The translations under genes and the position numbers were made by a program. Shown in pieces: positions 27,238 through 54,701 of a DNA stretch of 64,000 nucleotides. Position 1 is the stretch's first letter, and every line of letters begins with the position of its first letter. The stretch is from Parashewanella tropica (GTDB lineage Bacteria; Pseudomonadota; Gammaproteobacteria; Enterobacterales; Shewanellaceae): positions 3,752,001 to 3,816,000 of the forward strand of contig NZ_CP037951.1 in assembly GCF_004358445.1 (NCBI RefSeq), given 5' to 3'. Below the pieces are notes generated by a model, which did not search any database, was not told the DNA's origin, and saw nothing but the letters and a program-made list of their open reading frames with translations.

Positions 27238-28250
27238 TGTTCACTATCTCCTGAAATACTGTTGCCACCAAAGCGTTGTTGGTAGGCACGATAACCCGAA
27301 CCAACAGGCTTAATTGGTGCAGATAACGCTTGACCTGTGTAGTTCAAATCTCTTCTGAGAGTGCGGTATTGATGACGTAAGGTGGTAGGTCGCATGGCAT
27401 GAAAACTATTCGAAATCGCCCCATGAGCAGCAATCGCTACCCCGCCACCTAGGGCTGAAGCCATTGCGGGAATTTGCTTCATCACTAAAATGCACAACCC
27501 CATCACAATGCACAACATGGAGCTGTCGCTGAGGGTGGTTAGAGCAGCATGGTTGAGAGAGATTTGTGACAGATACTTGGAGGCCACCGTTGTCATCAAT
27601 TGCCCTGACGAGACTCCAAGTAACAAGATGAAGCCGAAGTTGAGTACCATGCCCAGCCAGCTTTCAAAAAAGCGTTGAGTGGCTTGAAACAGAAGCAGAA
27701 CAAAGAAAGCTGGACCGATTGCTAGCAGCACACTGACCATGACTTTGCTCAGTAAAATAAAGAACGCCACTAATAAAGTCAGGCAACCACCGATGGTTAA
27801 AATCCCCATTGCCAAAATATACATGCCAAAGTTGCCGTTCATGACGCCACCTTGTCGCCATGCATTATCGGCAAGGATGAGAATTTGGCCGAACAGGTGA
27901 TCTAACAGCTGCGCCGCATTTTGAGTTTTAGTGCCTGATACAACAGCGGCTAAAAACTGTGGCGTTTCACTTAAAAACCGGACTACGGTTTGATTGTAAT
28001 GACCAACGGTTAAGCCCAAAGTCAAAATAAACCCAATCCGAATGATGCGAAAAAATCCCTCTTGTAATGGCTCCTGACTACGTCCAAACATCATTGAGTA
28101 GCCCCAAATCACTACCCACAAGATCATCATGCTAGTGAATACAGGGATAAGATATTGAATAAGCCTTGCCGAACCTTGCTGCACATAGTTGTGTAAGGCT
28201 TGATCCACCAAGCTGAAAATACTGCGATACAGATTACTGGTAGCCGCCAT
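27234..28250 (-). CDS. virB6: VirB6-type polytopic channel protein
   Basis: The 338-residue protein (ATG at 28250; a GTG three codons upstream is also possible) has five or more membrane segments and the TrbL/VirB6 pattern. A large central hydrophobic block lies at about residues 140-260. VirB6 lines the inner-membrane DNA path. The start follows the upstream lipoprotein gene stop by five bases, and its stop overlaps virB7 by four. The C-terminal tail is basic and cytoplasmic. Confidence 0.9.
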   Translation of the reverse strand: MAATSNLYRSIFSLVDQALHNYVQQGSARLIQYLIPVFTSMMILWVVIWGYSMMFGRSQEPLQEGFFRIIRIGFILTLGLTVGHYNQTVVRFLSETPQFLAAVVSGTKTQNAAQLLDHLFGQILILADNAWRQGGVMNGNFGMYILAMGILTIGGCLTLLVAFFILLSKVMVSVLLAIGPAFFVLLLFQATQRFFESWLGMVLNFGFILLLGVSSGQLMTTVASKYLSQISLNHAALTTLSDSSMLCIVMGLCILVMKQIPAMASALGGGVAIAAHGAISNSFHAMRPTTLRHQYRTLRRDLNYTGQALSAPIKPVGSGYRAYQQRFGGNSISGDSEQ

Positions 28251-28255
28251 TTTGA

Positions 28256-28534
28256 TCACTCTTTTGGGTGAGCCATATCAGCTGGTAGCGGTACAGGATC
28301 ACCAGCCACAATGTCATTTGCCGCTTGTTGAGCGTTAATGCATTCAGGATGATTGCGATACTTAGCTGGATTGTTACTGCATTGGGTTAAGGTTTGCATC
28401 AAGATTTTCTGATGCTGTTTAAACCAAGCCACATCATGAGCTTGGTTTTGCTGACTATGGTGATTGCTCATTTTTGAACATCCAGCCACTAGGCTGATTG
28501 TTAGTGAAACAAGAATAAGATTGATGGCTTTCAT
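28256..28534 (-). CDS. Entry-exclusion (EexN/TrbK-like) lipoprotein
   Basis: A 92-residue lipoprotein (MKAINLILVSLTISLVAGC, acylated Cys19). The mature part has VAWFKQHQKILMQTLTQCSNN, then NHPECINAQQAA. This is the pattern of two cysteines with Trp and NA-x-x-A seen in TrbK/EexN proteins, which stop redundant transfer into cells that already carry the element. Its place between virB5 and virB6 is the usual one for eex genes in VirB-type operons. Function is inferred from pattern and position. Confidence 0.72.
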   Translation of the reverse strand: MKAINLILVSLTISLVAGCSKMSNHHSQQNQAHDVAWFKQHQKILMQTLTQCSNNPAKYRNHPECINAQQAANDIVAGDPVPLPADMAHPKE

Positions 28535-28581
28535 GCAGAGTCCTCATTGTAGATTTAATGGGTTCTGCCGTCCTTGGTAGG

Positions 28582-29217
28582 TTAGTTCCAATTCACATTA
28601 ATCGGGTGTAATTCACCAGCCGATTCAATGGCCATTTGAGTAATACGCTGTTGTGCTAACGCATCACTGGCTTGTGCTTGAGCTTTCATTAGCTGCAATT
28701 TGGCTTGTTCATTAGCAAGCATGGCGTTTTCCGCTTGAATACGGGCTTGTAAATCTTGAATGTCTTTTTGTTTTGGTGCTTGAGTGATCTTGTTGATAAG
28801 CCTAGTAAGTTGGTCGTATCTCACTTGGGTTTCTTGCAGTGATAATTGGGTTTGTCCTAACCAACGACCACGATAGCGATTGATGTCATCAAACAAACTT
28901 GCGCTGTCACCACCAAGCTTGAGCCATTCGCTGTTGTGTAAGCCTTGTTGTTTAAGGGTCAGATTGGGGTCGACTTTGACCGCCACATCGTAAACAGAAT
29001 CAATGGCATCGCTCATCCCTGTAATACCGTTAATGCTACTGAGCTGGCGCTTTGCGGTATCAAGCTGTTGTTTGAGCGTGTCGATTTCTTCCAATAAGTG
29101 ACGTATTTCAATGATTTTTTGATGCAGATTAGCAATATCAATCACTGGAAAAGCCAAGCTGGGTAATGGCAGTGATAGTGTCATCAGTAGCGCTATCATT
29201 AAAGAAAGGCGTTTCAT
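28582..29217 (-). CDS. virB5: VirB5/TrbJ-type pilus-tip protein
   Basis: A 211-residue secreted protein with a signal peptide (residues 1-22, ending SLAF). The mature part is a long helical bundle (IDTLKQQLDTAKRQLSSING, later LQARIQAENAMLANEQAKLQ), the VirB5/TrbJ fold. VirB5 sits at the pilus tip and helps contact the recipient. It overlaps the virB4 stop by four bases (ATGA). Confidence 0.88.
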   Translation of the reverse strand: MKRLSLMIALLMTLSLPLPSLAFPVIDIANLHQKIIEIRHLLEEIDTLKQQLDTAKRQLSSINGITGMSDAIDSVYDVAVKVDPNLTLKQQGLHNSEWLKLGGDSASLFDDINRYRGRWLGQTQLSLQETQVRYDQLTRLINKITQAPKQKDIQDLQARIQAENAMLANEQAKLQLMKAQAQASDALAQQRITQMAIESAGELHPINVNWN

Positions 29218-31682: not shown

Positions 31683-31999
31683 AGTATTCTCTCTTTATTT
31701 CGGGTGTTCACAACAGGACAGGCTGTGGCATAACCCAAGCATCGCCAGCATACGGATTTAGCCTTGGTGTTCATCCATAACTTGAGCAAACGAAACGTCA
31801 TGGGATCACGCAAACACAACGAATACATAAGTGCATGCAAAAGAAAATACAGCAGTAAAGCAAAGGGGTTTTTAGTGGCAATCATTAGCACTGTGACTAC
31901 TGACGCAGCAATGATAATGCCATCCAAAGTCACACCCCACTTCATCGCAGGACGAGTGACAGCCACAAATAAGGGATCACAGAAGTTAGTAGAAGACAT
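31679..31999 (-). CDS. virB3: VirB3-type membrane protein
   Basis: A 106-residue inner-membrane protein with two adjacent membrane segments (about residues 20-58) and the VirB3 opening DPLFVAVTRPAMKWGV. VirB3 partners VirB4 and is needed for pilus assembly. Its end overlaps the virB4 start (ATGA), and it begins 14 bases after the virB2 stop. Confidence 0.92.
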   Translation of the reverse strand: MSSTNFCDPLFVAVTRPAMKWGVTLDGIIIAASVVTVLMIATKNPFALLLYFLLHALMYSLCLRDPMTFRLLKLWMNTKAKSVCWRCLGYATACPVVNTRNKERIL

Positions 32000-32013
32000 A
32001 GTAACTCTCCCCT

Positions 32014-32373
32014 CTACTTAACAGCTGAAATGATTAAATCGACGATTGTTGAGCCACCAAAAACTAGAACAATGCCGGCAATATACTTACCGCAAGTCTC
32101 ACCAGTGATACGCCCAAACCATGCCAGATAACCCAAAATGGCAATCCCAATTATTGCAGCACTGCGAGCAATACCATTGGTAAGCAACTGCATCACCCAA
32201 TCCACGCCTTCTGAAATGGGATCGGCAAAGGCGAGTTCTGGAATGAGCATCAAGACGGTAATAAATAAACAATTAGCTAAGATAGAAGATGATAACGGTT
32301 GATTGCATTCAGCATTAGATTTCAAAGGGCAAGGCAGAAGTTGAATATAATTTAATTTTGAGCCTGTTTTCAT
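32014..32373 (-). CDS. virB2: VirB2/TrbC-type pilin
   Basis: The conjugative pilus subunit. The 119-residue precursor has a long leader (about residues 1-51, ending ELAFA) and two membrane helices in the mature part (about 66-84 and 95-115) joined by the short polar loop WFGRITGETCGK, as in VirB2. AGGAG precedes the ATG. It is the first gene of the transfer operon. The promoter should lie in 32374-32652, shared with the divergent regulator. Confidence 0.92.
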   Translation of the reverse strand: MKTGSKLNYIQLLPCPLKSNAECNQPLSSSILANCLFITVLMLIPELAFADPISEGVDWVMQLLTNGIARSAAIIGIAILGYLAWFGRITGETCGKYIAGIVLVFGGSTIVDLIISAVK

Positions 32374-38789: not shown

Positions 38790-39373
38790 GCTTTGCCTTC
38801 GCCCCCTAGAAGGCAAGCTGTTGTCCCCGATAGTTTACGAATTAAAAATCAAAACCTTCTTGTCGCTTTTCAAGCTTTTCCTGATATTTGACATACTTCC
38901 GTATCATTTCTGCATCTATACCTACGGTATCTACACAGTAGCCCTGAGCCCAAAAGTGATTACCCCAATAAGGCTTCTTTCGTAAGTATGGGGACTGTTT
39001 AAAAATCCTTATCGCTGTTCTACCTTTCACTGCTCCGAGTAAGTCTGATACCGAGCACTTAGGTGGTACTTTTACTAAAAGGTGTACATGCTCCTCTTGA
39101 ACATTAAGCTCTACTACTTGGCAATCTAACCTACCACAATATATCTGAATGCAATTGAACACTTCATGTGCTACCTGCCCCTTAAGTATTCTATATCGAT
39201 ACTTAGGAACCCATACAATATGATATTGGCAATGCCATAAAACGTGCGATAATTTTTAAATCTACTCATGTTGTAGATCCTTTCTCTGTTGTGGGGACAA
39301 TAAGAAAAGTCTTAACATGGCTAGATGCTACAGGCATAGCCTATCGCTGATTACCACGCCCACTGGACGTGGT
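38790..39373 (-). mobile_element. IS200/IS605-family element (inactive transposase)
   Basis: The element is bounded by subterminal hairpins rather than inverted terminal repeats, as in IS200: the right-end hairpin GCTTTGCCTTC/GAAGGCAAGC at 38790-38818 and the left-end hairpin ACCACG/CGTGGT at 39353-39373. It carries one tnpA-like gene with a frameshift. True outer ends lie somewhat beyond these hairpins and are not fixed here. Its left end reaches into the phosphopantetheinyl transferase gene. Confidence 0.7.
38842..39269 (-). pseudogene. tnpA: IS200-type TnpA transposase, frameshifted
   Basis: The open part (38842-39162 and upstream in frame) encodes a Y1 HUH transposase with HUH motif EEHVHLLVK and the tyrosine in IRKYVKYQEK. 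The natural start MSRFKN at 39269 is out of frame. Just inside it, a run of five T at 39253-39257 (five A on the coding strand) needs one more base to join the start to KLSHVLWHCQYHIVWVPKYR. With that base the protein would be 142 residues, normal for TnpA. A one-base loss is the simplest reading; slippage on the A-run is possible. Confidence 0.8.
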
Positions 39374-40068
39374 TTTAATTTTTCAATAAAAACAAAAGTT
39401 TCAACTTGATTATTATTAAAGCTATACAATACTTTTATTCTGCGACCTGCATATAGTTCATCATTTAATCTTTGGGTAAACTCAAGCTCTAGCATTTTAT
39501 TTCTATCGTCAACCCTGCAGACTTTGACAAACATAAAATTTACAGCACGTTTTATTTGAGGGAATATTGCTTTATATAATGCTTCCTTACCAGAAAATAT
39601 CATAGTGATAAAAAGGTTGTGACTTGAAAAGCATTTACTAAATATCAGTTCACTTGGTGCCATAATCTTTTCTGAAAAAAAATTCGCACGGTTGGAATCG
39701 AATATAACTTCTTTATCTACACCAACGCCTATTACATTATTATTTTTTAGTGTAACTATTGCAGTTGCGACATTATTAGTATGGCTAATACTTCCACAAA
39801 TAGAAGCTGGCCAAAGTGGCTCATTATTTATTCCTATACCTGGCTGGATTACTTCAGATATACCAAGGTTTTTCATGGCCTGTACAGCACACCACCTACC
39901 CGCAACGAATTCACACTTTCGTTTTAGTAAAGCTGTGTCCAAACTTGCAGGAATATAGAGCTGTTTTCTTAATAGCTCGTCTAAAAAGTTTTGCTCATAT
40001 TCGATGGTCATTTCTACTTTGCTAAAAAAAATACCTTGATCGTGAAAGTAAGTAAAAAATGAGTTCAT
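39328..40068 (-). CDS. 4'-phosphopantetheinyl transferase, C-terminus replaced by IS sequence
   Basis: The 246-residue Sfp/EntD-type enzyme would convert apo acyl carrier protein to the active form by adding phosphopantetheine to its serine. Motifs are CGSISHTN (about 91-98), GVGVDKE (about 114-120, Mg ligands) and FSGKEALYKA (about 158-167). The last 15 residues (KPRPVGVVISDRLCL) are read from the IS200 left end, including its hairpin, so the native C-terminus has been lost. The catalytic core is intact and activity may survive. It is last in the acyl cluster; the likely client is the ACP at 45569. Confidence 0.85.
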   Translation of the reverse strand: MNSFFTYFHDQGIFFSKVEMTIEYEQNFLDELLRKQLYIPASLDTALLKRKCEFVAGRWCAVQAMKNLGISEVIQPGIGINNEPLWPASICGSISHTNNVATAIVTLKNNNVIGVGVDKEVIFDSNRANFFSEKIMAPSELIFSKCFSSHNLFITMIFSGKEALYKAIFPQIKRAVNFMFVKVCRVDDRNKMLELEFTQRLNDELYAGRRIKVLYSFNNNQVETFVFIEKLKPRPVGVVISDRLCL

Positions 40069-40104
40069 AGGCGAAATTAATTTCCATATATTATATTTAG
40101 CGAT

Positions 40105-41349
40105 TTAAAATGCATAATGCAGGCTAAATTTTACAAACTCTTCCCCCACTAATGCATGCAAACGCCGCTCTTCTGATGAAGCGGTAAGTACTTTCACAAA
40201 TTTTGCTTTAACTCTAAAATAATCAAGAAAACGATGTTGGTAACTTAGCTCAGCATACTGACCTCTATAATCTAAGTCATAGCTATATAACATTCGAAGA
40301 CTACTCTGGCTCGCATCTCCAAACTCAAACTTTGTGCCAACAAAAATGTCATTTTGTGCGTGAGTTTCTGCTGTTATCTTTCTATCATCAAAGATATATT
40401 CCCCAATAAATATGACTTCGTCAATGACATCAGAAAAAAGATAGCTAGGATACTCAATTCCAAAACTAGCAGCTGTGAAACCATCACCTAATTCTTTTCC
40501 TATCTTAGCTTCAGTTTTTAAAGTGAAATTTTCGGTTAAATAGACACCATCAAAAAGTAAATTTTCTGTTTGTATGTAGAATGGAGTAAGAAGTTCAGGA
40601 GACATGGAGCTTCTAATCAAAATTGGTTGTCGCCTAGTACCTTTAAAATAAGAGAAAGCAAATTCATAGTCTTCAACATAAAATAATGCTCGTGCTGCAT
40701 AGCCTCCGTCTTTTTTATTATTTTCGAAGAGGTTACTATTTGATATAGGCAAACCATAAGAAGGTCTTTGTGGGAAGTTAATGGCTCGAAATTTAGGCAA
40801 ATAAATAAAAGTGATCTCACCATTAGAAAATTGATTGCTTACAGAAATAAAAGTCTGCCCTAATTTAACTTTACCATCAATACTCTCGCTTATGTCTGAT
40901 TGATTTAGTACATTTACCAAATTAATAGATTCAGAAGCCCCCCAGAAAAAAGTATCGATACCAAAACCAAACTTATTTTCCCCTTTGTGAAAATAAACAT
41001 TTGCTTTTCGAATATCCATATAACGCCGTTCTTCATCTTTATTATTCCAATTATAGAATACTTGACTACTGAATTTAATATCCTTGAATTGTGAAAAATC
41101 GAACTTAGTATTTAATTTAATTTCACCTTTATAGCCATAACTAAACTGATTGTTAACCACTTGGTTTTTACCATTTTTGTTTATATAATAACGAGTGGTT
41201 GATGCTAGATCAAAAACCAGATTATCTAAAATATCTTCAGCTAAACAAGGTGTATAAAATCCTAAAGTTGTAATGTAAATTATGAATATCTTCCAATATC
41301 TGATGCTTGTTCTAAAATTCTTTCCCGAAAGGCTAGTAAACATTATCAA
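40105..41349 (-). CDS. Outer-membrane beta-barrel protein (DUF1302-like)
   Basis: A 414-residue protein with a signal peptide (cleavage near residue 37, CLAED), alternating amphipathic strands and a terminal phenylalanine (HYAF), the marks of an outer-membrane barrel. The stretch RKANVYFHKGENKFGFGID followed by FFWGASESINLVNVLNQSD recalls DUF1302 proteins, which often accompany MMPL-type exporters and LolA-like partners. It overlaps the LolA-like gene by four bases. It could be the outer-membrane exit or acceptor for the cluster product. Confidence 0.72.
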   Translation of the reverse strand: MIMFTSLSGKNFRTSIRYWKIFIIYITTLGFYTPCLAEDILDNLVFDLASTTRYYINKNGKNQVVNNQFSYGYKGEIKLNTKFDFSQFKDIKFSSQVFYNWNNKDEERRYMDIRKANVYFHKGENKFGFGIDTFFWGASESINLVNVLNQSDISESIDGKVKLGQTFISVSNQFSNGEITFIYLPKFRAINFPQRPSYGLPISNSNLFENNKKDGGYAARALFYVEDYEFAFSYFKGTRRQPILIRSSMSPELLTPFYIQTENLLFDGVYLTENFTLKTEAKIGKELGDGFTAASFGIEYPSYLFSDVIDEVIFIGEYIFDDRKITAETHAQNDIFVGTKFEFGDASQSSLRMLYSYDLDYRGQYAELSYQHRFLDYFRVKAKFVKVLTASSEERRLHALVGEEFVKFSLHYAF

Positions 41350-42161
41350 TCCCTTAATGCACTGCGGTGAAAATCTCTATCATTCAACCCTATGGTGAAC
41401 TTAATAGACTTATATTCAAGAGAAGTTACTTTATTTGTTTGTACATTATGCATTACTACCTTATTTGCTCGCCAGTACCTATTCTTATATAAGACAAAGT
41501 TATGAGCCTTAAAAACTTTTAGTAAAACGTTCTTACGATCGTAGTATTCAATTTTGTAAATCTTTTTATCCAATTGATCTACCCACATGATTTGTTTACT
41601 ATAACCAGAATGTTTGTCGATAGGATAACGCTCAATAATATCACATTGGACAGCTGTTGTTTTAGCTTCATAATCAAAACAAGCTTCCGTTGATATATAA
41701 TTGTAAGTATAATCCTCGATATTTTTATTAGTCATATCTTCAAAAGAAAACTCACTTCCCATAAAAGCGCCAGACTTATTCCGTGAAGAAATTCGTTTTG
41801 TTCGATTTACCGCTGGTAAAAACAACCACTGCCCGTCAGCTTGATTTTTGAATGGGTGCGTTAACAGAGATGTACCTTTTATATCTGCAGGAAAATTAAA
41901 TTTAATTAGTGATTTATCTCCATTTCTAATATTTTCTAATACTTTGATCTCCAGTTCCCTAACGGTTTTTCTTCCCTGGCTATTTTCTAGTATCATTGAT
42001 AATTTCGCTACGCTATCTTGAAATCCAGCATTTCGATTGTCTACTGCCAACGCAATGTCATAGCCTTTTTTCCTAGAGCTTTGCTCAGCCTGAGACAAAT
42101 CGCTAACTAGCACTGCTATAATAAATAGTAAAGCTAATTTATATTTATTAGTTTCCATCAA
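41346..42161 (-). CDS. LolA-like outer-membrane lipoprotein-sorting protein
   Basis: A 271-residue periplasmic protein with a signal peptide (about 1-25, ending SQAEQ). The fold signature is that of COG2834 proteins: TSLLTHPFKNQADGQWLFLP, NRTKRISSRNKSGAFMGSEF and FSFEDMTNKNIEDY. Such proteins form open hydrophobic barrels that carry acyl chains through the periplasm. It sits between the MMPL exporter and the outer-membrane barrel, suggesting a relay for a lipid-like product. Confidence 0.82.
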   Translation of the reverse strand: MMETNKYKLALLFIIAVLVSDLSQAEQSSRKKGYDIALAVDNRNAGFQDSVAKLSMILENSQGRKTVRELEIKVLENIRNGDKSLIKFNFPADIKGTSLLTHPFKNQADGQWLFLPAVNRTKRISSRNKSGAFMGSEFSFEDMTNKNIEDYTYNYISTEACFDYEAKTTAVQCDIIERYPIDKHSGYSKQIMWVDQLDKKIYKIEYYDRKNVLLKVFKAHNFVLYKNRYWRANKVVMHNVQTNKVTSLEYKSIKFTIGLNDRDFHRSALRD

Positions 42162-42170
42162 ATTCTCTCT

Positions 42171-44507
42171 TTAATATAAGTTGGTTATAAATTTATTTTG
42201 AGTCGGTGTAATAGAGCTCTTTCGAATAAATCGCATGGCTAGCACTGGTAGAACGATCAGATCAAAAATCAGTGCAAGAATAATGGTGCCGCTGGTCAGT
42301 AATCCCATTTGTGCGTTCTTTTCAAATGAGGAAGTAGATAACAGTAGAAAGCCAACGACTAACAAAGCTGAGCTGATGACAATAGCACTCATGGTGTGCT
42401 CAAATGTATTTTTAACGCTTTGCTCAGGTGAGAGCCCATTTTTCAACCCTTTGATATATTGATAAAGAAAGTGCACTGTATCATCAACAATAATACCAAT
42501 AGCCATTGCCGATACACCAGCTAGTCCCATTGATATTTGACCTTGAATGCAATACCAAAAACCGAAAGCCATACCTACTGGTAATAAGTTCGGTATAAGG
42601 GTTAGCAAGCCAATGTAAAACGATCTAAAAACTAAGGTTAAAGCAACTGATATAATAAGAAATGCGATAAAAGCTCCTTGAAGCAAGCTAACAATATTGC
42701 TTTGACCAATATGAGAAAATATAAGTGATGGGCTTGAGTAACTATAATTGATATATTTAGGTTTATTATCTTCAAGCCAACCCTTGACTTTATTTTCGAA
42801 TGCGATCATTTCCAACGAGCTGCTGTTATGTAATCGAGCTGTTAGTTTAATTGCTGACTTATCAAAATTAAGCATATCATCTGCACCTTTGCCAAAAGGC
42901 AACGACATTTCATATAGCAGAAAATGTTGCGCTGCCAATGTTGGATTATTTGGAATTCGATAAAATTCAGGGTTATTTGCATTCATCAAGAGATTGAGCT
43001 GTTTTATTCTATGGAGCAGACTACTAGTGATAACAACTTCAGGTTGATCCATAAGCCAAGCATCAAAAGCTTCAATAAATTTGAGGTATTCAAAGGAAAA
43101 TACACCGTTTTTTTCAGTACTTGAAATCGAGTAATCAATGTTATATAGCCCTGAAAATTGTTCATCAATGGCTTCTGAATCTAGTCTAAATTCGACTGTT
43201 TTATCGAAGTACTTAATTAAGTCATCATTGCCTTGGTTTAAGAGGCTTAAGCTTGCTAGTACTAATGTACAGGGAACAATAATATAGAGAATTTGTTTTT
43301 GTTTTCGAATAACTAAATTAGAAAGCCAGCCCATATTATCAAACACTTTGATTACATAGCTTTTTTTAGAGGACAAAGTCAGCTTCATGAGTAATGCAGG
43401 CAGTAGAGTAAATGAAAGCAATAACGAAAACATAACTCCAAAAGCAACAATATTTCCCAGATCTCTAAAAGGTGGTGAATCGCTAGTGTTCATAGCAATA
43501 AAACCAATAATCGTTGTTAGATGACTGACAAGAATGGGCTTGGCATTATGTCGATATGACAACAATACAGCCTTAGATTGTGCTTCACCCAATAGGAGTC
43601 GTTTCTTCACATAGCTGATAATGTGAATACACGATGCCACAATGACTGTAAACATTATTATTGGTGCAGAAATTGATGGTGCTGAAAGGTTGATACCAAG
43701 CCAACCTGCTAGACCTAAGGCTCCCAACAGTGAAAGTAATAACACAATAAGTATACAGCTTGCGGCTTTAAATGAGCCGAGAATTATGCCTGCTGCTATT
43801 AATACAAAGACTACCATTAATGGTATGAGTGTAATAAAATCACGTTTAGCGGCGGTAAAAAAAGCACTGTTCATTGTTACTAAACCCGTGACATAAAATT
43901 TATGATCAGGATAGTCAATTTTAAGATCGCTCAGCACATCATCAACACCACTGCTAACCGCTAGAGTTTCTTGTTTGTGGTTTTTTCCTGGTAGTAATGT
44001 GGTAATATTTACTGCTGAGTATTGACCATCTTGGGTGATAAGGTTACCTACTAAGTCTTTTTCTTTGTTTGCAGTTTTTTTAACGAACTCAATATGCTCT
44101 GTTGTTATTTGTTTCGGATCATAAATAAACTCCTCAATGAAAATTTCATCATTGATAGCTTGGCTATAAGGAAAGTTAGTAAGGGAATCAACTCGTAATA
44201 CATGTGGTATTTTCCACAAACGATTTGTAAGTTCACTAATTAAACCTATTGTTTTGAGATTATATATATCATCATGATTAGGCCTGATCATAATAAATAT
44301 ATTATCAGTCTTACTATAGGTACTTTCCATTGTCTCTAATATTTGTAGATCTGTATTACCTTTATCAAAAAATATTTTATAATCACTGGACAATTCAATG
44401 TTTTTCAAACCTAAAATTGAAAATATAGTAAATATAATCACTCCAGACAATAATAGCCGACTCGTTCTGGACGTTAATATCCAAACTATATTGATGTTGT
44501 GCTTCAT
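42171..44507 (-). CDS. MMPL/RND-family exporter
   Basis: The 778-residue form starting at MKHNINIVW overlaps the monooxygenase stop in ATGA; a start five codons upstream is also possible. It has two copies of the six-helix RND unit with periplasmic loops. The second unit contains GLAGVSAMAIGIIVDDTVHF (proton-relay aspartates). Proteins of this COG1033/COG4258 type move lipids or hydrophobic metabolites across the inner membrane. Its adaptor-like neighbours support export of an acylated product. Confidence 0.88.
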   Translation of the reverse strand: MKHNINIVWILTSRTSRLLLSGVIIFTIFSILGLKNIELSSDYKIFFDKGNTDLQILETMESTYSKTDNIFIMIRPNHDDIYNLKTIGLISELTNRLWKIPHVLRVDSLTNFPYSQAINDEIFIEEFIYDPKQITTEHIEFVKKTANKEKDLVGNLITQDGQYSAVNITTLLPGKNHKQETLAVSSGVDDVLSDLKIDYPDHKFYVTGLVTMNSAFFTAAKRDFITLIPLMVVFVLIAAGIILGSFKAASCILIVLLLSLLGALGLAGWLGINLSAPSISAPIIMFTVIVASCIHIISYVKKRLLLGEAQSKAVLLSYRHNAKPILVSHLTTIIGFIAMNTSDSPPFRDLGNIVAFGVMFSLLLSFTLLPALLMKLTLSSKKSYVIKVFDNMGWLSNLVIRKQKQILYIIVPCTLVLASLSLLNQGNDDLIKYFDKTVEFRLDSEAIDEQFSGLYNIDYSISSTEKNGVFSFEYLKFIEAFDAWLMDQPEVVITSSLLHRIKQLNLLMNANNPEFYRIPNNPTLAAQHFLLYEMSLPFGKGADDMLNFDKSAIKLTARLHNSSSLEMIAFENKVKGWLEDNKPKYINYSYSSPSLIFSHIGQSNIVSLLQGAFIAFLIISVALTLVFRSFYIGLLTLIPNLLPVGMAFGFWYCIQGQISMGLAGVSAMAIGIIVDDTVHFLYQYIKGLKNGLSPEQSVKNTFEHTMSAIVISSALLVVGFLLLSTSSFEKNAQMGLLTSGTIILALIFDLIVLPVLAMRFIRKSSITPTQNKFITNLY

Positions 44508-45568
44508 AATATTTTTTTCCACTTTTCCATATAACTTTCTAACAACGTAATTACATGGTTCACATCTCTTTCAACCCCCAAAATTAACTCAGATCCTCGG
44601 CAACTGAACCACTTACGTCCAATAATGAATAGTCCAGGCTCAGGCGTTTCTCCTTGGTTATGAATAAAGCCGTTGCCATCTGAACAATGTGGAAGTTTTA
44701 ACCACTGAGTATTATCTTGATAACCTACAGCCCAAATCACTACATCAATGGTTTTTGTGCTTCCATCAAGAAAAGTAACTATTTCGTTTGAACATGAGAG
44801 CAATCTAGGTTTGATGTCAACACCAAGAGTCTTTAACTCTTTATTATTAAAGTTAGCGCAAGGAATGGGGTTGCGATTTTTTAGAATTTTCGCAATAAAT
44901 GATGAATTACTAGCATTAAGAATACCTAAATTCTTCAACCACCAAAATAGGTCTTTACCTAAAACTCTATTAGGTAGTAACCCTCGGCTTGTACCTGTAG
45001 ACAATGTTACTTGGCAACGTTGAGCAAGCCCGCCAGCAATTTGCCTCCCGGATGCTCCATCACCGACAACTACTACGTTAGAATCATTAGGAACAATAGA
45101 TAATGAAGAGAGTTGAGACGTTAATTGACATACTTTTTCTGATAGTAATTTGCTTATGTTAGGAATTGTTACGGATTGATTTGATCCTGTAGCATTGACA
45201 ACTGTTCTGGCATGTAACTGTTCACCAGAACTTAATTCTAGTATGAATATATTTGATTTTTTAACTAGCGATATCACATCCGCTAGTTCACGAATATTCA
45301 AGTTAAATTGATTTGCATATATTTTTAAATAGCGACCAATTTCGCAAACTTTAGGAAACTCTGCAGGATCACCAGGTAAAGGAAGTCCTGGTAAATTACA
45401 AAATTGACGGGAAGTAAACAGACGCATACCATCTAATCTATTTAACCATACTTGACCTACTACATTCCGCTCTAATACAAGGTAATTAAGATTTTTGTCA
45501 TGCAGTTGCTTTGCTGCGTATAGCCCACATTGACCTGCGCCAATAATAATTGTATCAAATACTTTCAT
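44504..45568 (-). CDS. FAD/NAD(P)H-dependent monooxygenase-like flavoprotein
   Basis: A 354-residue two-dinucleotide-fold protein: FAD motif GAGQCG at residues 10-15, NAD(P)H motif GDGASG at 169-174, and an ATG-type motif in VVIWAVGYQDN near 275-285. It resembles the COG2072 flavin monooxygenase/CzcO group, enzymes that oxidise amines, sulfides, thiols or ketones. Its start follows the ACP gene by one base, so the two are tightly coupled. The substrate is unknown; an ACP-bound acyl chain or a sulfur atom is plausible from context. Confidence 0.82.
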   Translation of the reverse strand: MKVFDTIIIGAGQCGLYAAKQLHDKNLNYLVLERNVVGQVWLNRLDGMRLFTSRQFCNLPGLPLPGDPAEFPKVCEIGRYLKIYANQFNLNIRELADVISLVKKSNIFILELSSGEQLHARTVVNATGSNQSVTIPNISKLLSEKVCQLTSQLSSLSIVPNDSNVVVVGDGASGRQIAGGLAQRCQVTLSTGTSRGLLPNRVLGKDLFWWLKNLGILNASNSSFIAKILKNRNPIPCANFNNKELKTLGVDIKPRLLSCSNEIVTFLDGSTKTIDVVIWAVGYQDNTQWLKLPHCSDGNGFIHNQGETPEPGLFIIGRKWFSCRGSELILGVERDVNHVITLLESYMEKWKKIL

Positions 45569-45844
45569 TTATGAAGCTACCTTATCAGGTTGCTGCAAGT
45601 ATATGCCCATTAAATATGTAACCAAGGCATTTACAGTTGGATATTCAAATGCCAAAGTCGGTGATACTTCAATATGCATACAGTCTTCTATCACGGCAGT
45701 TAGCTGTACATGCCCTGCTGAGTCTAAGCCTAAACGTGAAAATGATGTATCGATGTGTTTATCTAGAGAAAAACCGTCAACACTAGAAGACATATATTTG
45801 CAAATTTCAGCAACAAGTGTTTCTTTTGAGATTGTGTTTTCCAT
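45569..45844 (-). CDS. Acyl carrier protein
   Basis: A 91-residue acidic helical protein with the phosphopantetheine site GLDSAGHVQL (Ser42). It would carry an acyl chain as a thioester. It lies between the fatty acyl-AMP ligase gene (124 bases away) and the monooxygenase gene (adjacent). A phosphopantetheinyl transferase is encoded at the end of the same cluster. It is distinct from the housekeeping AcpP sequence. Confidence 0.9.
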   Translation of the reverse strand: MENTISKETLVAEICKYMSSSVDGFSLDKHIDTSFSRLGLDSAGHVQLTAVIEDCMHIEVSPTLAFEYPTVNALVTYLMGIYLQQPDKVAS

Positions 45845-45968
45845 AAAATTTTCCTTAATTTATTTTTAAATAAACGATCTTCACAGAAAGCTATCTTTAC
45901 TGAGCAAAATCGAAGGGGTAATATTGCTTATTTGAGGTAGAACAGCAGGGCTGTTAAACTATAAGAAA

Positions 45969-47642
45969 TTAAATGAGTTCAATACATGCGGTGCGCTTTA
46001 CTTTACCACTAGTCGTTTTAGGAATCGTTCCAGGCTTAACTACACGCAATATATCTATTGAAACTTCATGTTGTTCATTAATTAAAGCTCTCAAGTCGTT
46101 TATAAGCACCTGTTCACAAGTTGTACTTAAGGCTCGTTTATTAATTTCAACAATAGCCCCTAACTTAGTGCATGAATCTTGCTGATAGGTAAAAACTGAA
46201 GAACCATTACCTCCCGAGGCATGCAGATAATTGTTACAAGTTCTCTCAATATCATAGGGGTATAAGTTTCGACCTCTAATAATCATCATCTCTTTAAGGC
46301 GACCAGTAACATAAAGCATACCTGTTAGGATGAAGCCTAAATCACCTGTTCTTAAATAGTATTTACCGTTAAAGGGGTTTAACTTCGCTCGAAAATCAGA
46401 TTTAGTTTTTTCCTTGTTATTAAGATAACCATGTGCAATTGAAGCACCTGAGACCCAAATTTCACCGACTTCATTATCTTTACACAGTTCCATACTTTCT
46501 GGATTAACGATTTTCACATCAAAGCTATGTGCAATTGCACCGCAACTCACAATTTTTGTCCCTTTTTTTGCTGTAATACACCTTCCTTGTGATAACTCAT
46601 TTTTATCAAGTGTAACTGTCATTACACCAGAGTGATGCGGCCCACCAGATATTAATAGGGTGGTCTCAGCCATACCGTAAGTAGGAAAAAAAGAATTTGG
46701 GTCGAAACCATATTTCTTAAACTTATCAGAAAAAGCCAACATTGTTTGCTCATTAACTGGTTCTGAGCCATTCAGTGCGACTTTCCAACAGCTTAGATCA
46801 ATATTCGATAAATCCTCATTATCTCGAATGAACTTGACGCAATGTTCATATCCGAAATTAGGGGCTGCTGAACACGAAATCTTATAGTGTGAAATCAAAT
46901 GTAACCAACGACTCGGACGTTGAATGAAGTTCATTGGTGGCATAAAAACATATGTACCAGCCATGTATAAAGGATTCATCATATGTCCAACTAACCCCAT
47001 ATCATGAAATTGAGGCAACCAACCTCCAGCTATGACTCCTTTCGAGTGTCCACATGCATGTCGAATTGATTCCATGTTATCAACAATATTTTCATGGCTA
47101 ATTACAACCCCTTTAGGAGCACTTGTTGAACCTGATGTATACTGGATAAATGCAATATCATTTGGTTTGATATGCGGTAAATGGCTTATATTGTTAGTCT
47201 CATCTTGTTCAGTGACCCACGTTAATACATCTTGTTTTGAGGAGCTGATTTGTTCTAGCTGTCCTGATAATAGTGTTTTTGTAGTATTTGTTGTCAAAAC
47301 CACGTTGATCATAGCATCTTCAATAACACCGAGGGTTCGTTCAAGTTGCTGTGAATTACGGGTTACATTTAGTGGTACAGCTATAACGCCTGATAACAAG
47401 CAAGCGAGAAAGTTCACTATGAAGTCAAAGCCTGATGGGTAAAGTAGTGCAACAGGTTTACCTTGATAACCTAAAGCCAGAAGTAATTGTGCTCTTTTAT
47501 AAGCTGCAGAATAAAGCTCTTTGTAACTAAGAAATTCTGCTGTGTCTATATCACGAGGTTGAAAAATACTCGCCAAGTGATTTGGTTGGTTTCGAGCATG
47601 CTCCCTGATTGCATCCATTAATAATGGGTAGTTACCAGACAT
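45969..47642 (-). CDS. Fatty acyl-AMP ligase (FAAL)
   Basis: The 557-residue adenylating enzyme has the P-loop YTSGSTSAPKG (168-178), YGMAE (322-326), a C-terminal RTGDLG motif and the catalytic lysine in TSGKVKR. The central pattern (FMPPMNFIQRPSRWL, SAAPNFGYEHC, LNGSEPV) is that of FAALs, which activate fatty acids to acyl-AMP and pass them to an ACP instead of CoA. It follows the cysteine desulfurase gene by three bases. The ACP two positions on is the likely acceptor. Confidence 0.92.
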   Translation of the reverse strand: MSGNYPLLMDAIREHARNQPNHLASIFQPRDIDTAEFLSYKELYSAAYKRAQLLLALGYQGKPVALLYPSGFDFIVNFLACLLSGVIAVPLNVTRNSQQLERTLGVIEDAMINVVLTTNTTKTLLSGQLEQISSSKQDVLTWVTEQDETNNISHLPHIKPNDIAFIQYTSGSTSAPKGVVISHENIVDNMESIRHACGHSKGVIAGGWLPQFHDMGLVGHMMNPLYMAGTYVFMPPMNFIQRPSRWLHLISHYKISCSAAPNFGYEHCVKFIRDNEDLSNIDLSCWKVALNGSEPVNEQTMLAFSDKFKKYGFDPNSFFPTYGMAETTLLISGGPHHSGVMTVTLDKNELSQGRCITAKKGTKIVSCGAIAHSFDVKIVNPESMELCKDNEVGEIWVSGASIAHGYLNNKEKTKSDFRAKLNPFNGKYYLRTGDLGFILTGMLYVTGRLKEMMIIRGRNLYPYDIERTCNNYLHASGGNGSSVFTYQQDSCTKLGAIVEINKRALSTTCEQVLINDLRALINEQHEVSIDILRVVKPGTIPKTTSGKVKRTACIELI

Positions 47643-47645
47643 AAT

Positions 47646-48821
47646 CTATCCCTCCCCTATAGCTAAAAGATTTTGAGTTTCAGCAACAAGGACAGTAACG
47701 AATTTTTCTATATCTTGAAGAGAGGTGAAACGACCAAAGGACACTCTAATAGTACTTTGAATATCATGCTCTTTGATATTCATAGCTTTTAAAACATGAG
47801 AGATATTTTTCTTGCTATTATTACTACAGGCCGAACCAACAGAAATAACATAACTATTTAATAACTCCATACGTGCTCCCAAAGCTTCACCACGAACACC
47901 TTTGATAGTTATACTTAATGTATTCGACAGTGCTGCATCTTGGGCTAATTTTCCATTAAACTTTACTTCAATTGGCGCTGCTCTAAGTAATTCCACCATG
48001 TATTGCTTACATGACCAATTATTCTGTTCCCATTGTTCAATATTTAATAAAGCTTCCTGAGCAGCTTTTGATGCCCCCATAATAGAAACAAAGTTTTCAG
48101 TTCCTGAACGCATTGATAATTCTTGCCCACCACCATGAATTAAGGGGGGAATTGAATTAACATCACGAATCCATAAGCAGCCAATGCCTTTTGGGCCATA
48201 AAATTTATGTGCCGAAAGTGATAAATAATCAATTTCTAAATTCTCAACATTAATTTTACGCTTGCCAACAAGTTGAACAGCATCAACGTGAATTGGAATA
48301 CCACGTTCTTTAGCTAATTGTGCTATTTCAGGAATAGGTTGAAGAACACCTGTTTCATTATTAGCGTACATTACAGATACAAGCTGTGTATCTTTTCTCA
48401 GAGCATTCCTAAAATCCTCCGTGGTAACTGAACCATCCTTGTTTGGTTTCAAATATGTAACTTCGAAACCAAAATGTTCAGCAAAATATTTTATAGTTTC
48501 AAGCACTGATGCATGTTCAATTGCAGTTGTCAGAATATGCCCTGGTTTAGAAATATGTTTAAACAAAACTCCCTTAATCGCCCAATTGTTTGCTTCTGAA
48601 CCACCAGACGTGAAAAAGATTTTATTTGCAACTGTACTGAGCAAACTCGCAACATTTTTTCGAGATTCTGAAATAGCTTCTTTGCTTTTTATAGAGTGAC
48701 GATTATTACTTGAAGGGTTAGCAAATTGAGTTATTGCTGCAATCATCGAATTTGCAACTTCATTTGATACTGGTGTAGTTGCGTTGTAATCGAAATAGCC
48801 CGAGAGATCCTGCGAATTCAT
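47646..48821 (-). CDS. Cysteine desulfurase (NifS/IscS-like)
   Basis: A PLP enzyme that frees sulfur from cysteine as a persulfide. The 391-residue protein shows GGSEANN (73-79), the PLP aspartate in HVDAVQ (178-183), the Schiff-base lysine K206 in SAHKFYGPKG and RSGTEN (238-243). The active cysteine is C332 in SVGSACSNNSKK. It starts one base after the IscU-like stop. Placed inside an acyl-ACP cluster rather than an isc operon, it may supply sulfur to the product or a cluster to a partner enzyme. Confidence 0.93.
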   Translation of the reverse strand: MNSQDLSGYFDYNATTPVSNEVANSMIAAITQFANPSSNNRHSIKSKEAISESRKNVASLLSTVANKIFFTSGGSEANNWAIKGVLFKHISKPGHILTTAIEHASVLETIKYFAEHFGFEVTYLKPNKDGSVTTEDFRNALRKDTQLVSVMYANNETGVLQPIPEIAQLAKERGIPIHVDAVQLVGKRKINVENLEIDYLSLSAHKFYGPKGIGCLWIRDVNSIPPLIHGGGQELSMRSGTENFVSIMGASKAAQEALLNIEQWEQNNWSCKQYMVELLRAAPIEVKFNGKLAQDAALSNTLSITIKGVRGEALGARMELLNSYVISVGSACSNNSKKNISHVLKAMNIKEHDIQSTIRVSFGRFTSLQDIEKFVTVLVAETQNLLAIGEG

Positions 48822-48822
48822 C

Positions 48823-49191
48823 TTAACTAACTCCTAAATTTAATTTAGTCATTAATTTTTCATGTAACTCTTCTAAAATTTGTAAACAGTGATTTTGCGA
48901 TGGTTCTAATTCACCGAGCATGGCTTCAATGTCTTCAGGCTGCCTGAGTGCTATTTCGGCTCCGTTTTGGCCTTCTATCGAAGAACAAAAAACATTTGCT
49001 GTAGCTATAGAAGTTGCACATCCCCAGGCTTTAAATACTGCTCTATTAATTAAATTGTCAGTAATATCTAGATAAACCTTGATTCGATCACCACATACTG
49101 GATTACCAATTTCAAGCACCAAGTCAGCAGCTGATAGTTCACCGACATTTTGTGGATTGGAAAAATTATCAATAATAATTTCGTTATACAT
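48823..49191 (-). CDS. IscU/NifU-N-like Fe-S scaffold or sulfur carrier
   Basis: The start at 49191 (MYNEIIIDNFSNPQNVGEL) aligns with the IscU N-terminus; the longer frame does not. The 122-residue protein keeps C33 and D35 (NPVCGDR), C58 (WGCATS) and H101-C102 (NHCLQIL), all equivalents of the IscU cluster ligands. The LPPVK-type motif of IscU that binds HscA is absent; the C-terminal part reads ELEPSQNH there. A scaffold without chaperone binding, or a sulfur relay, is possible. It is coupled to the desulfurase. Confidence 0.85.
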   Translation of the reverse strand: MYNEIIIDNFSNPQNVGELSAADLVLEIGNPVCGDRIKVYLDITDNLINRAVFKAWGCATSIATANVFCSSIEGQNGAEIALRQPEDIEAMLGELEPSQNHCLQILEELHEKLMTKLNLGVS

Positions 49192-49244
49192 GTTGTTACC
49201 TATGTACTTTGCAAATATAAGTGGTATCTCGCTTAATACTTTAG

Positions 49245-49314
49245 ATAGATGCTCCAAACTAGCGATTGTTTAGTAATCGGCAGTAATTCACTCATAATTT
49301 TAGGGAGCATCTAT
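49245..49314. repeat. 11-bp inverted repeat between luxE-like and iscU-like genes
   Basis: ATAGATGCTCC (49245-49255) and its exact complement (49304-49314) are 48 bases apart, with a small GATT/AATC hairpin between them. In the operon mRNA this would give a long stem just ahead of the IscU-like start, perhaps controlling stability or read-through. Confidence 0.5.
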
Positions 49315-49336
49315 TTGTCTATTTATTAGGAAATAA

Positions 49337-50512
49337 CTATGCTATGACAGGGCATGAGTGAGTCCTTTGTTCTTCAATATCGTCAAGTTGCTTATCTAGG
49401 TTTACTGCACAACAGCCAAATTCTGTAGATTCAGGTAAACGCATTACATACTCAACTCGTTGACCACTACGTAAATCATTATCCGCTTTAGGTAGCAGGC
49501 GAACTAAATCTTCCGTCAGAATAAAACCCGGTGTTGAACGAGAAAGTGGATCTAGTATTGCAAGTTGACCGACTTCATTTGTAGCGACTTCTTTGTCTAA
49601 GTTTTTAGGGTCACGAACTGAAAAATGGATATATGGAGAAACATGTTTTATACCGTGTTCATCATCGATGGCCACCACATTAGATTCAACTAAAGCATAA
49701 ATATCTCTGATTTGATGCTGCTCAATCCCGAAGTACTCTATACATTCATTGTTAAATTCTTTACGAGACAGCATCTCCCCACTAAATCGCTTCCAACCAC
49801 CTAGAGTGATCACTAAGGTGTTTTTATCTAGCTTAAGTTTTTGATTTGTCGCTTTTAAAAAGCGAATAAAACGATTGATTAAGAAAGGTGGACCAATAAT
49901 ATGGCGATCAAAATTGTTCTCCCAAATTGATAATTGTTCTAAGGCATCTTCAGGCGCAAAACTGTCACTTTTAACCATAAACCTGTGGGTATCTAATAGT
50001 CCAGCCATCATATTGAGTGCTTTGATCATTCCCATTTCAGGGATTTCTTCATTTGAGGGACATAGATAAAGCCCTGCACCTTTAGAAACGCTAAAAAATT
50101 CACGATACATGGCATAAATACCGAGAGTCGCATTATCAACTGTTTCCGAACAACGGCGAGAAACACTAGGAATTCCAGATGTTCCTGTACTACGCATTTC
50201 TAATTCAACATCTTTTAGATTTTTCGATAATAACTTGTGATTATCGTTTGCCTTAAACAATTGAATAGGGATTAACGGAATTTTTATTAAATCTAAAGAT
50301 GATTTAATTACTTCAGGGCTAATATTTTTTTCTTCACACGCAGAGCGATAAAAAGCATTGTTTTCAAAGTGAAATTTAAATGAATCTATCACTAATGAGG
50401 ATTTAAACTCTAATAAGTTATTATCGCTCATTGCATATAGTTGCTTGGTAGAGGAAAGGGCTACTTTAACAGGGTCTAACCCTGAATTTTTCAATAATGA
50501 GTTTAATTCCAT
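49337..50512 (-). CDS. LuxE-like acyl-protein synthetase
   Basis: The 391-residue protein matches the LuxE family, which activates a fatty acid with ATP and holds it on a cysteine near the C-terminus. Features are NNAFYRSAC, IPIQLFK, the nucleotide loop RSTGTSGIPS (107-116), the middle stretch IIGPPFLINRF and LGGWKRFSGE. The C-terminal GCC (366-368) sits at the LuxE acyl-cysteine position. No luxA, B, C or D is nearby, so bioluminescence is not implied. It is the first enzyme gene after the AraC-type regulator. Confidence 0.88.
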   Translation of the reverse strand: MELNSLLKNSGLDPVKVALSSTKQLYAMSDNNLLEFKSSLVIDSFKFHFENNAFYRSACEEKNISPEVIKSSLDLIKIPLIPIQLFKANDNHKLLSKNLKDVELEMRSTGTSGIPSVSRRCSETVDNATLGIYAMYREFFSVSKGAGLYLCPSNEEIPEMGMIKALNMMAGLLDTHRFMVKSDSFAPEDALEQLSIWENNFDRHIIGPPFLINRFIRFLKATNQKLKLDKNTLVITLGGWKRFSGEMLSRKEFNNECIEYFGIEQHQIRDIYALVESNVVAIDDEHGIKHVSPYIHFSVRDPKNLDKEVATNEVGQLAILDPLSRSTPGFILTEDLVRLLPKADNDLRSGQRVEYVMRLPESTEFGCCAVNLDKQLDDIEEQRTHSCPVIA

Positions 50513-50588
50513 TTTATATAATCACTGTCTCGATCCTAATGAAACAGTGATTTTAAATAATAAATAAATCAATAATTGAACAAACTTG

Positions 50589-51356
50589 CTAACTTTCAGA
50601 TATAGTAGCTTTTAATTGCTTAATAGAAAGGCCAAACATTGATCTGAATGTTCTGCTTAAGTGTGCACTATCAGAAAAACCAGCATAATAAGCTGCTTCA
50701 GTGGCTCTCGCCCCTTTTGCCATCGCAGTAATAGCACAAATTAAACGCCGCCACTTCAAATAAGGTCGCCATGCAATACCAACCTCATTCTTAAATAAAT
50801 GTAAGAACCGACTCATAGATAGAGATAGTTCAGATGCAATATCTGCTGCTCGTAAGTCAGCTGGCTTTTGGCATCTTCCCGAAAAACAAAGGTTCAACCT
50901 TTGTATAAGGCTTAGAATTCGTTTGTCTTTAATGTTACTGTTTTCAACTGATAAATTGAAAGGTAAATTCAGTATATCGAAAAGCGGTGCTAGAGTAGTT
51001 ATTAGATTCGTAATATGCTCATGGGGGGCTGGACAACTTACGACTTTGTCATTAATAGATATTGCTGCAGAGTTGTTTAGTATTTGTTTCAATGCCGCCC
51101 CTAAAATACTTTGTGGCTCAACTAGTAATAACAATCCGTTATTCAGTTGCAATTGATGTTCAACTTGAGAATCAATAATGAAACTTCCTGCCAGCTTTAT
51201 ATTCGAAAGTTTACATTGTGAATCCTTAGTTGACCAAACAATTTGTATAGCATGATGCTTATGCATTTCCACATCCAAAGAAGTACCATAAAAAATTATT
51301 ATATGACCCTTTATCCAAATATTTTGTCCAAGTTTTGTAAATGCAATCTCGTTCAT
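50589..51356 (-). CDS. AraC family transcriptional regulator
   Basis: A 255-residue regulator with an N-terminal sensing domain of cupin type (HKHHAIQIVWS near residues 31-41) and a C-terminal AraC DNA-binding domain. The first helix-turn-helix is in RAADIASELSLSMSRFLHLF, and the second in EAAYYAGFSDSAHLSRTFRS. It is the promoter-proximal gene of the acyl cluster on the same strand, 76 bases before the luxE-like gene. It most likely controls the cluster in response to a small ligand. Confidence 0.9.
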   Translation of the reverse strand: MNEIAFTKLGQNIWIKGHIIIFYGTSLDVEMHKHHAIQIVWSTKDSQCKLSNIKLAGSFIIDSQVEHQLQLNNGLLLLVEPQSILGAALKQILNNSAAISINDKVVSCPAPHEHITNLITTLAPLFDILNLPFNLSVENSNIKDKRILSLIQRLNLCFSGRCQKPADLRAADIASELSLSMSRFLHLFKNEVGIAWRPYLKWRRLICAITAMAKGARATEAAYYAGFSDSAHLSRTFRSMFGLSIKQLKATISES

Positions 51357-54677: not shown

Positions 54678-54701
54678 GAGCAGATCCAGAACGTGGAGTA
54701 G
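54678..54701 (+). pseudogene. attR: displaced yicC 3' end remnant
   Basis: GAG CAG ATC CAG AAC GTG GAG TAG encodes EQIQNVE-stop, the same last residues as intact yicC at 2659-2682 but with different synonymous third bases and a different stop. The nucleotide repeat proper is 54681-54700. A yicC-like terminator follows at once. This is the original chromosomal yicC end cut off by insertion, or a relic of an earlier host. Confidence 0.8.

Follow-up and report, generated by a model that had tools for sequence, protein, structure and literature searches.

What would a mobile operon make that joins acyl activation and sulfur mobilization to an export line? The question is raised by eleven genes, all on the minus strand, at positions 39328–51356 of a 64,000-nt stretch of the Parashewanella tropica genome (NZ_CP037951.1, 3,752,001–3,816,000, forward strand; hereafter the window, to which all coordinates refer). 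Read from 51356 to 39328, they encode an AraC-family regulator, a LuxE-family protein, an IscU-like protein, a NifS-type cysteine desulfurase, a fatty acyl-AMP ligase (FAAL), an acyl carrier protein (ACP), a flavin oxidoreductase, an MMPL exporter, a LolA-like carrier, a putative outer-membrane barrel and a phosphopantetheinyl transferase (PPTase). The original prediction for this locus had described tightly spaced genes on one strand, and coordinates, strand and gaps agree, with −19 to 145 nt between neighbours, which overlap or lie close. Its family calls were borne out by Pfam and NCBIfam profile searches of the operon proteins, except that the barrel has weaker evidence (hhalign, C-terminal Phe). 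We tentatively read the locus as a mobile operon for biosynthesis and export, centred on an acyl-thiolation unit whose product (thiocarboxylate, acyl persulfide or something closely related) would be oxidized and exported; in our estimate, this falls just short of an even chance.

The case starts from how often the genes recur together. A five-sequence LuxE alignment and two peptide patterns were used to scan 84,980 species genomes, not exhaustively. Of the 75 loci returned, 59 have the LuxE gene followed by IscU-like and NifS genes in the same order (58 satisfy our spacing rule; L087 begins within LuxE). The other 16 lack IscU and NifS and comprise L066, with a shortened LuxE, and 15 loci of an Arthrobacter/Citricoccus type. 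Triplets were found in Pseudomonadota, Cyanobacteria, Bacilli, Clostridia, Actinobacteria and Chloroflexota. Because the same order recurs in other phyla, the claim that the genes belong together holds, its support being the gene order that recurs in 59 of 75 LuxE loci. Besides, the pairwise distances of LuxE, IscU, NifS, FAAL and the flavin monooxygenase (FMO) correlate (r 0.83–0.955 over 48 loci, whose rows are related and include some near-copies).

Near the 58 triplets we found FAAL in 52 cases, a phmmer-detectable ACP in 40, the flavin enzyme in 45, MMPL in 21, the barrel in 10, AraC in seven and the PPTase in none; some of the 18 loci without a phmmer match carry ACPs too diverged for detection. 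FAAL, ACP and the flavin enzyme are frequent extras, and the exporters vary by lineage. In six of the 58 loci, no FAAL lies nearby. Whole-genome searches at E ≤ 1e-60 turned up nothing FAAL-like in five of these six, and the sole FAAL-like match of the sixth sits within a 4036-aa open frame; in four Bacilli (L065, L067, L068, L069), neither FAAL nor a detected ACP stands beside the triplet. Since such FAAL-less genomes exist, LuxE–IscU–NifS looks like the minimum unit. The predicted acyl- and sulfur-linked product was upheld in part: sulfur involvement is likely, but the core is this triplet rather than FAAL plus ACP; modification of the chain on the ACP, also predicted, may or may not take place.

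A second line of evidence lies within LuxE, the best conserved protein of the cluster. It scores 136.8 bits against PF04443 (curated cut-off 24.9), matches structure 7xc6 at E 1.4e-30 and is 26% identical to LuxE-like proteins outside its clade. Its C-terminal Cys, which we take to be the carrier of the acyl group (C368 here), is kept in 80 of 82 LuxE rows and aligns with the Cys of the LuxE in L022, a lux cassette carried by an E. coli plasmid. Directly ahead of it stands a further Cys (G-C-C) in all 65 rows with IscU and NifS neighbours, which represent 62 distinct genomes, or 63 with L150 (L027/L035, L028/L034 and L030/L037 are the same genomes). L066, whose LuxE tail is lost beside a transposase-like frame, was left out of this comparison, and two of the 15 Arthrobacter-type rows (L104, L106) are fragments. 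A second sample of 37 loci, obtained with the Pfam LuxE profile over 349 genomes of the phylum (28 matched) plus the eight distant hits of a search of 144 genomes, had neighbours sought within about 1.5 kb only; here, both loci with IscU and NifS (the window and G774) carry the pair, and each of the remaining 35 shows a single Cys. Combined, Cys-Cys occurs in 66 of 66 rows with IscU and NifS and in none of 49 distinct loci without them (15 Arthrobacter-type, L029 and 33 of the second sample). This signature and the dedicated IscU go beyond the original prediction.

In a LuxE tree of 115 rows, built with the C-terminal columns removed (L066, L104, L106, L128 and L151 left out), the 13 full Arthrobacter-type rows, which have neither Cys-Cys nor IscU/NifS, nest among actinobacterial and Chloroflexota Cys-Cys rows (100/96, 100/99); the 36 remaining single-Cys rows are split off together by one branch (support 100/99). 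Well-supported branches thus force two changes. Arthrobacter-type proteins have His, Asn, Asp or Arg in place of C367, and in the full rows of Citricoccus L090 and L093 the pair reads Arg-Ser, the acyl Cys being gone as well. As the Arthrobacter-type rows nest inside the Cys-Cys group, the pair and IscU/NifS appear to have been lost jointly. The simplest history would be one gain and one joint loss in this branch, with two gains of the pair as a less simple alternative, and such a joint loss would run in the direction that a coupling predicts. Of the Arthrobacter-type loci, one neighbourhood (L092) was read in detail: beside LuxE it holds PALP, ornithine-cyclodeaminase-like, A-PCP, hexapeptide/PCP and TauD proteins of an unfamiliar pathway.

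LuxE homology by itself would also suit a lux-like function, in which LuxE acylates a protein or activates an acyl group for reduction and IscU/NifS serve redox maintenance. We hold this to be the least probable of the alternatives weighed here: no LuxC-type reductase was detected in the window operon (Pfam) or, by annotation, in a related operon on a Priestia plasmid, the lux-cassette LuxE has no Cys-Cys pair, and LuxE loci outside the clade have no IscU/NifS neighbours within the flanks seen.

The IscU-like protein carries a signature of its own. Its C/D/C/H ligands are conserved in 65/65, 65/65, 65/65 and 64/64 rows and the third Cys in 60/64. Its motif reads LxPxQxHC instead of LPPVKxHC, with Gln in 63 of 64 rows where IscU and SufU carry Lys or Arg; among 12 comparison rows, PVK precedes x-H-C in the seven housekeeping rows of IscU type, and the other five read R-I-K-C. 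LPPVK is the HscA site of IscU, and its loss fits a sulfur relay better than the standard Fe–S path. Of the 18 cluster genomes searched for it, all have the IscU-like protein and 16 have a further IscU/SufU/NifU-type match, some of them weak. A quick tree places 64 cluster rows apart from 12 others (SH-aLRT 86, few columns; long frames left out), pointing to a separate paralogue. In NifS, K206 is present in 65/65 rows and C332 in 64/64. When seven proteins were scanned with PADLOC, NifS matched the SspA and DndA models and the other operon proteins among them matched none; a DNA phosphorothioation reading was dropped because the constant partner of NifS is LuxE.

The retained C, D, C, H, C ligands are also what one would expect if IscU and NifS were a dedicated Fe–S assembly pair for a pathway Fe–S enzyme, with LuxE, FAAL and ACP making a sulfur-free lipid, and some variants of the cluster do carry U32 proteins bearing Fe–S type Cys motifs. 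However, no Fe–S enzyme was recognized among the window genes or in the Priestia operon as annotated, what accompanies the pair is a Cys-Cys change within LuxE, and the Lys/Arg of IscU and SufU has given way to Gln. We consider this account unlikely.

An acyl-thiolation unit could work as follows. NifS would take up the sulfur of cysteine in persulfide form; judging from its family and conserved residues, the dedicated IscU-like protein would relay it. LuxE would activate a fatty-type carboxylate with ATP to the acyl-AMP and then form a thioester on C368, as known for its family. The sulfane sulfur brought by NifS and IscU might go to C367 or straight to the acyl carbon; the acyl group would be released in thiocarboxylate or acyl persulfide form, or as a close derivative, and the C367–C368 disulfide left behind would then be reduced. 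FAAL and ACP may prepare or modify the acyl chain or supply a second acyl group. The flavin enzyme, or a UbiU/UbiV-like pair in some lineages, would add oxygen, possibly on the sulfur or the chain, and the product would exit, in the window, via MMPL, the LolA-like carrier and the barrel.

The sulfur could alternatively go elsewhere, into a chain thiol, a thioamide or a heterocycle, with LuxE merely supplying an activated acyl group and Cys-Cys acting as a redox or metal site. NifS and IscU would suit a generic sulfur supply, and in thiotetronate antibiotics a cysteine desulfurase and a thiouridylase-like transferase provide the ring sulfur (PMC5518548). Yet no other enzyme for sulfur insertion was recognized as shared by the loci, and LuxE is both the neighbour that stays constant and the best conserved of the proteins, which makes this route rather unlikely.

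A more far-reaching version of the acyl-thiolation reading is that a vicinal-dithiol LuxE with a private NifS–IscU pair constitutes a new and widespread enzyme class, which would make thiocarboxylic acids or acyl persulfides without a ThiS-type carrier or a CoA-transferase and which, with flavin or UbiUV-like oxygenation, would yield exported reactive acyl–sulfur lipids (e.g. acylsulfenic acids), spread between phyla and by an integrative and conjugative element (ICE). We regard this as possible yet doubtful. If the acyl-thiolation reading is right, it would add a further route for placing sulfur onto a carboxyl group and a possible non-Fe–S role for an IscU paralogue, and a LuxE ending in GCC beside IscU and NifS would mark producers in many bacterial groups.

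Which oxidation step might follow is hinted at by loci that lack the flavin enzyme. Its PDB matches are 4usr, 4usq and 4a9w, and the closest solved relatives (4usr, 4a9w) were deposited as monooxygenases. Thirteen triplet loci have no flavin enzyme; eight of them have a U32 protein instead, in six cases with a second protein adjoining, and L083 has an acyl-CoA-dehydrogenase-like (ACAD) protein. Counting L071, which carries both systems, UbiU/UbiV-like gene pairs occur in L065, L067, L068, L069, L071, L089 and L091, and no quinone gene was recognized beside these pairs in their clusters. The second protein has no Pfam hit and is weakly similar to the first by profile (hhalign 70%); its CX12CX3C spacing equals that of UbiV in four of six cases, or five of seven with L071. 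The U32 partner does not match the UbiU Cys spacing. UbiU and UbiV are described as Fe–S hydroxylases that work without O2 (PMC6747719). With UbiUV-like proteins in loci that lack the flavin enzyme, its step may be a hydroxylation, done by another route in some lineages.

Several observations weigh against the acyl-thiolation reading as a whole. FAAL and LuxE, both acyl activators, co-occur without explanation, and the substrate of LuxE may be a small acid rather than a fatty acid. The association of Cys-Cys with IscU/NifS comes down to few independent events, apparently one gain and one joint loss. The IscU split has an SH-aLRT of 86 only, the comparison rows of a quick NifS tree fall in two places (2 changes) with no clear split from housekeeping desulfurases, and, with nearly all Fe–S/Zn ligands kept, an Fe–S role for NifS and IscU is possible. 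Four triplet loci (L053, L054, L085, L088) have no FMO, U32 or ACAD protein. Finally, Bacilli or Actinobacteria account for most U32 loci, and it is the two clostridial ones that depart from the exact UbiV spacing, so that O2 would not fully explain the alternation of FMO and UbiUV.

As to the accessory enzymes, FAAL matches 7r7e, 3kxw, 3pbk, FadD23, FadD28 and FadD32 in the PDB and has fatty-acid-AMP ligase models among its top NCBIfam matches, below cut-off, being nearer to FAAL than to CoA ligases. In Pseudoduganella namucuonensis (positions 11262–14483 of locus L046), NifS and FAAL share a single open reading frame. Active-site residues are present in NifS (K206/C332), ACP (the Ser in LGLDSA), the PPTase (GVDKE...FSGKEALYK) and IscU (C33/D35/C58/H101/C102); the IscU-like gene was assigned the ATG start at 49191 in place of a TTG at 49257 because homologues begin at the same point. 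An ACP with its own activating enzyme had been predicted, and the operon does encode a PPTase; its kin do not, no counterpart being found at E ≤ 0.01 in the 75 relative loci or in four extended downstream regions. With the PPTase unmatched there and AraC in so few triplet loci, we regard both genes as local additions. The operon has no ketosynthase or non-ribosomal peptide synthetase (NRPS) domain by Pfam, in line with the claim that NRPS and polyketide synthases are absent; aryl polyene and siderophore readings were dropped on this ground.

The export line had been counted as part of the cluster, which relatives support. The exporter consists of MMPL, a LolA-like protein and a barrel in many Gammaproteobacteria, and MMPL and LolA form a single protein in nine loci (Cellvibrio, Pseudomonas, Pseudoduganella, Azohydromonas, Deefgea and metagenome-assembled genomes (MAGs) of Curvibacter and Lysobacter). 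Elsewhere, MFS and HlyD-type genes lie near eight Xenorhabdus loci, an MFS gene near the Paenibacillus and Lysinibacillus clusters, and an ABC ATPase with an FtsX-type permease in two clostridial MAG loci; some triplet loci have no transporter assigned. These fusions and the MFS or ABC genes of other lineages argue that export genes belong to the cluster. The barrel protein itself, without a Pfam or NCBIfam hit, has a signal-peptide-like N-terminal stretch and a C-terminal Phe, and its family aligns with a DUF1302-type family at an hhalign probability of 95%, so that its assignment is weaker than the others.

Closer to the window, a search of 144 genomes (relatives and P. tropica itself) found LuxE at 75–76% identity in three other genomes and in a distant form in eight more. 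Among plasmids, 34 records have LuxE protein matches, 14 of them Priestia at 47.6–49.0%, and no plasmid is a near match at the DNA level. The one Priestia plasmid neighbourhood that was read encodes FAAL, flavin enzyme, ACP, LuxE, IscU and NifS, the same six-gene core, plus a carboxymuconolactone-decarboxylase-like protein; with easily grown Priestia among the carriers, the chemistry would be directly testable if our reading is true. No relative was found in viral contigs or phage records. The window LuxE is 71% identical to a cyanobacterial LuxE, and cyanobacterial IscU rows fall among gammaproteobacterial ones in the IscU tree, which suggests transfer of the cluster between phyla. Individual clusters are also extended or broken: one from Paenibacillus adds a ketosynthase-ACP protein, NifS is in two pieces in L043 and L070, and LuxE is cut in L066.

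The predicted carriage on an ICE was corroborated by an integrase, a relaxase, VirB4- and VirB11-like proteins of a type IV secretion system and att-like repeats, one of them imperfect. The element would span about 2.66–54.70 kb (~52 kb); its left end adjoins yicC, identified by eye from its translation, and HTH_17 and AlpA-type regulators and an AbiE pair also lie between the att-like sites. G+C content is 35.0% in the operon, 37.8% in the element's left cargo part, 43.4% in the conjugation genes and 43.0% in the rph-yicC flank. For VirB4 (E ≤ 1e-200, 117 genomes), the matches listed include only five genomes, of this genus (at least 3, at least 1, at least 8, at least 3 and at least 7), and a window-type LuxE occurs in one of the five; the operon thus appears to be a cargo that this ICE family, common within the genus, may carry or lack. 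The cluster relatives in three named Shewanella genomes and in G080 share other neighbours, two of which read as fadB-/fadA-like, so the cluster was not seen in an ICE there.

Features of the operon and of the element that carries it (window coordinates)
Feature	Position	Strand	Evidence or remark
AraC-family regulator, operon head	50589..51356	-	PF12833; AraC HTH (helix-turn-helix); in 7/58 triplet loci
LuxE-family acyl-adenylating/acyl-protein synthetase, core gene; proposed acyl-thiolation enzyme	49337..50512	-	PF04443
LuxE C367-C368 codons	49409..49414	-	Additional Cys at C367; C368 corresponds in the alignment to the lone C-terminal Cys of LuxE proteins elsewhere
IscU-like sulfur relay/scaffold, 122 aa, core gene	48823..49191	-	PF01592 (NifU_N)
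NifS-type pyridoxal phosphate (PLP) cysteine desulfurase, core gene	47646..48821	-	PF00266; TIGR03402 356.9 bits, below cut-off
FAAL type	45969..47642	-	AMP-binding; PDB matches
ACP, LGLDSA motif	45569..45844	-	PF00550
FAD oxidoreductase, ArsO/small flavin-monooxygenase type (Pyr_redox/FMO); proposed hydroxylase	44504..45568	-	NF040505 129.6 bits, below cut-off
MMPL/RND inner-membrane exporter	42171..44522	-	PF03176; twelve hydrophobic segments (simple scan)
LolA-like periplasmic carrier	41346..42161	-	PF17131 178.7 bits
Putative outer-membrane beta-barrel, DUF1302-like	40105..41349	-	Signal-like N-terminus, C-terminal Phe, hhalign
Sfp/EntD-type PPTase	39328..40068	-	PF17837, PF01648; best NCBIfam model EntD, below cut-off
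attL-like site: yicC 3' end beside integrase	2659..2682	+	
attR-like repeat of yicC 3' end	54678..54701	+	Imperfect (19/24 bases)
Tyrosine integrase of ICE, directly after yicC	2744..4117	+	PF00589, PF13356
MobA/VirD2-like relaxase of ICE	13960..14661	+	PF03432
Conjugation region	18458..32373	-	VirB4-like 29214-31682 (by eye); T2SSE/VirB11-like 23331-24389

Other genes of the window deserve brief mention. Beside the operon, an AcrB-family RND pump (CzcA/CusA-like) and an HlyD/CusB-type adaptor (33469–37817) are perhaps metal-efflux cargo, and an IS200-type Y1 transposase frame with a GTG start (38842–39162; profile match from position 30) adjoins the operon end and may be a remnant. The ICE also encodes a peptide deformylase (17112–17648) and, near its right end, the AbiEii/AbiEi toxin–antitoxin pair (52618–54316). 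Positions 55039–59238, past the attR-like site, perhaps hold another small pathway, with genes for an AMP-ligase, an MFS protein and a citrate-synthase-like protein; the last has weak relatives (about 25%) in four genus genomes.

How does the operon compare with known systems? The LuxE of luciferase operons (7xc6, L022) is of the same family, with the same motifs and C-terminal Cys, but the operon's LuxE has the additional Cys next to it, IscU and NifS at its side and no LuxC-type gene. Like IscU/IscS and SufU/SufS, the operon couples a desulfurase to a scaffold or relay with the Cys-Asp-Cys-Cys positions; in contrast to these, its IscU is a separate copy, has Gln for Lys/Arg before the third Cys and is tied to LuxE. 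The pairs in flavin-less relatives recall UbiU/UbiV in being two adjoining genes, one for a U32 protein and the other, in five of seven, with CX12CX3C, yet the exact UbiU spacing was not seen and the second protein has no Pfam hit.

One may also ask whether the operon makes a known sulfur lipid or acylsulfenic acid with genes already characterized, a prospect raised by sulfenicin, an acylsulfenic acid natural product reported in 2025 (cited in PMC12300202). Sulfenicin is reportedly a polyketide–peptide hybrid from Streptomyces, and its pathway is said to show that a thiocarboxylic acid can be S-hydroxylated by a flavin enzyme; the two pathways would share the thiocarboxylate and this hydroxylation only if the acyl-thiolation reading holds. 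We consider a known product very unlikely. The literature searched, partly with other questions in mind, held no described LuxE–IscU–NifS pathway, matching the claim that the combination was unrecognized, and the known thiocarboxylate cassettes, as far as the part of the source available goes, use PtmA3/PtmU4, with no PtmU4-like type III CoA-transferase match (Pfam) among ten operon proteins and AraC, checked separately.

Natural products of the thiocarboxylic acid type are rare and considered underappreciated; the PtmA3/PtmU4 thioacid cassette serves thioplatensimycin and occurs also for thioquinolobactin, PDTC and yatakemycin (PMC6006322). We would place the operon's pathway with such thiocarboxylate-type biosynthesis, with a fair chance that it represents a distinct enzyme class. 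Both systems would first activate a carboxylate and then transfer sulfur to it, with few genes and a wide distribution, but PtmA3/PtmU4 relies on an acyl-CoA synthetase, a two-domain type III CoA-transferase and a sulfur-carrier protein, whereas the operon would use LuxE, an IscU-like protein and its own NifS.

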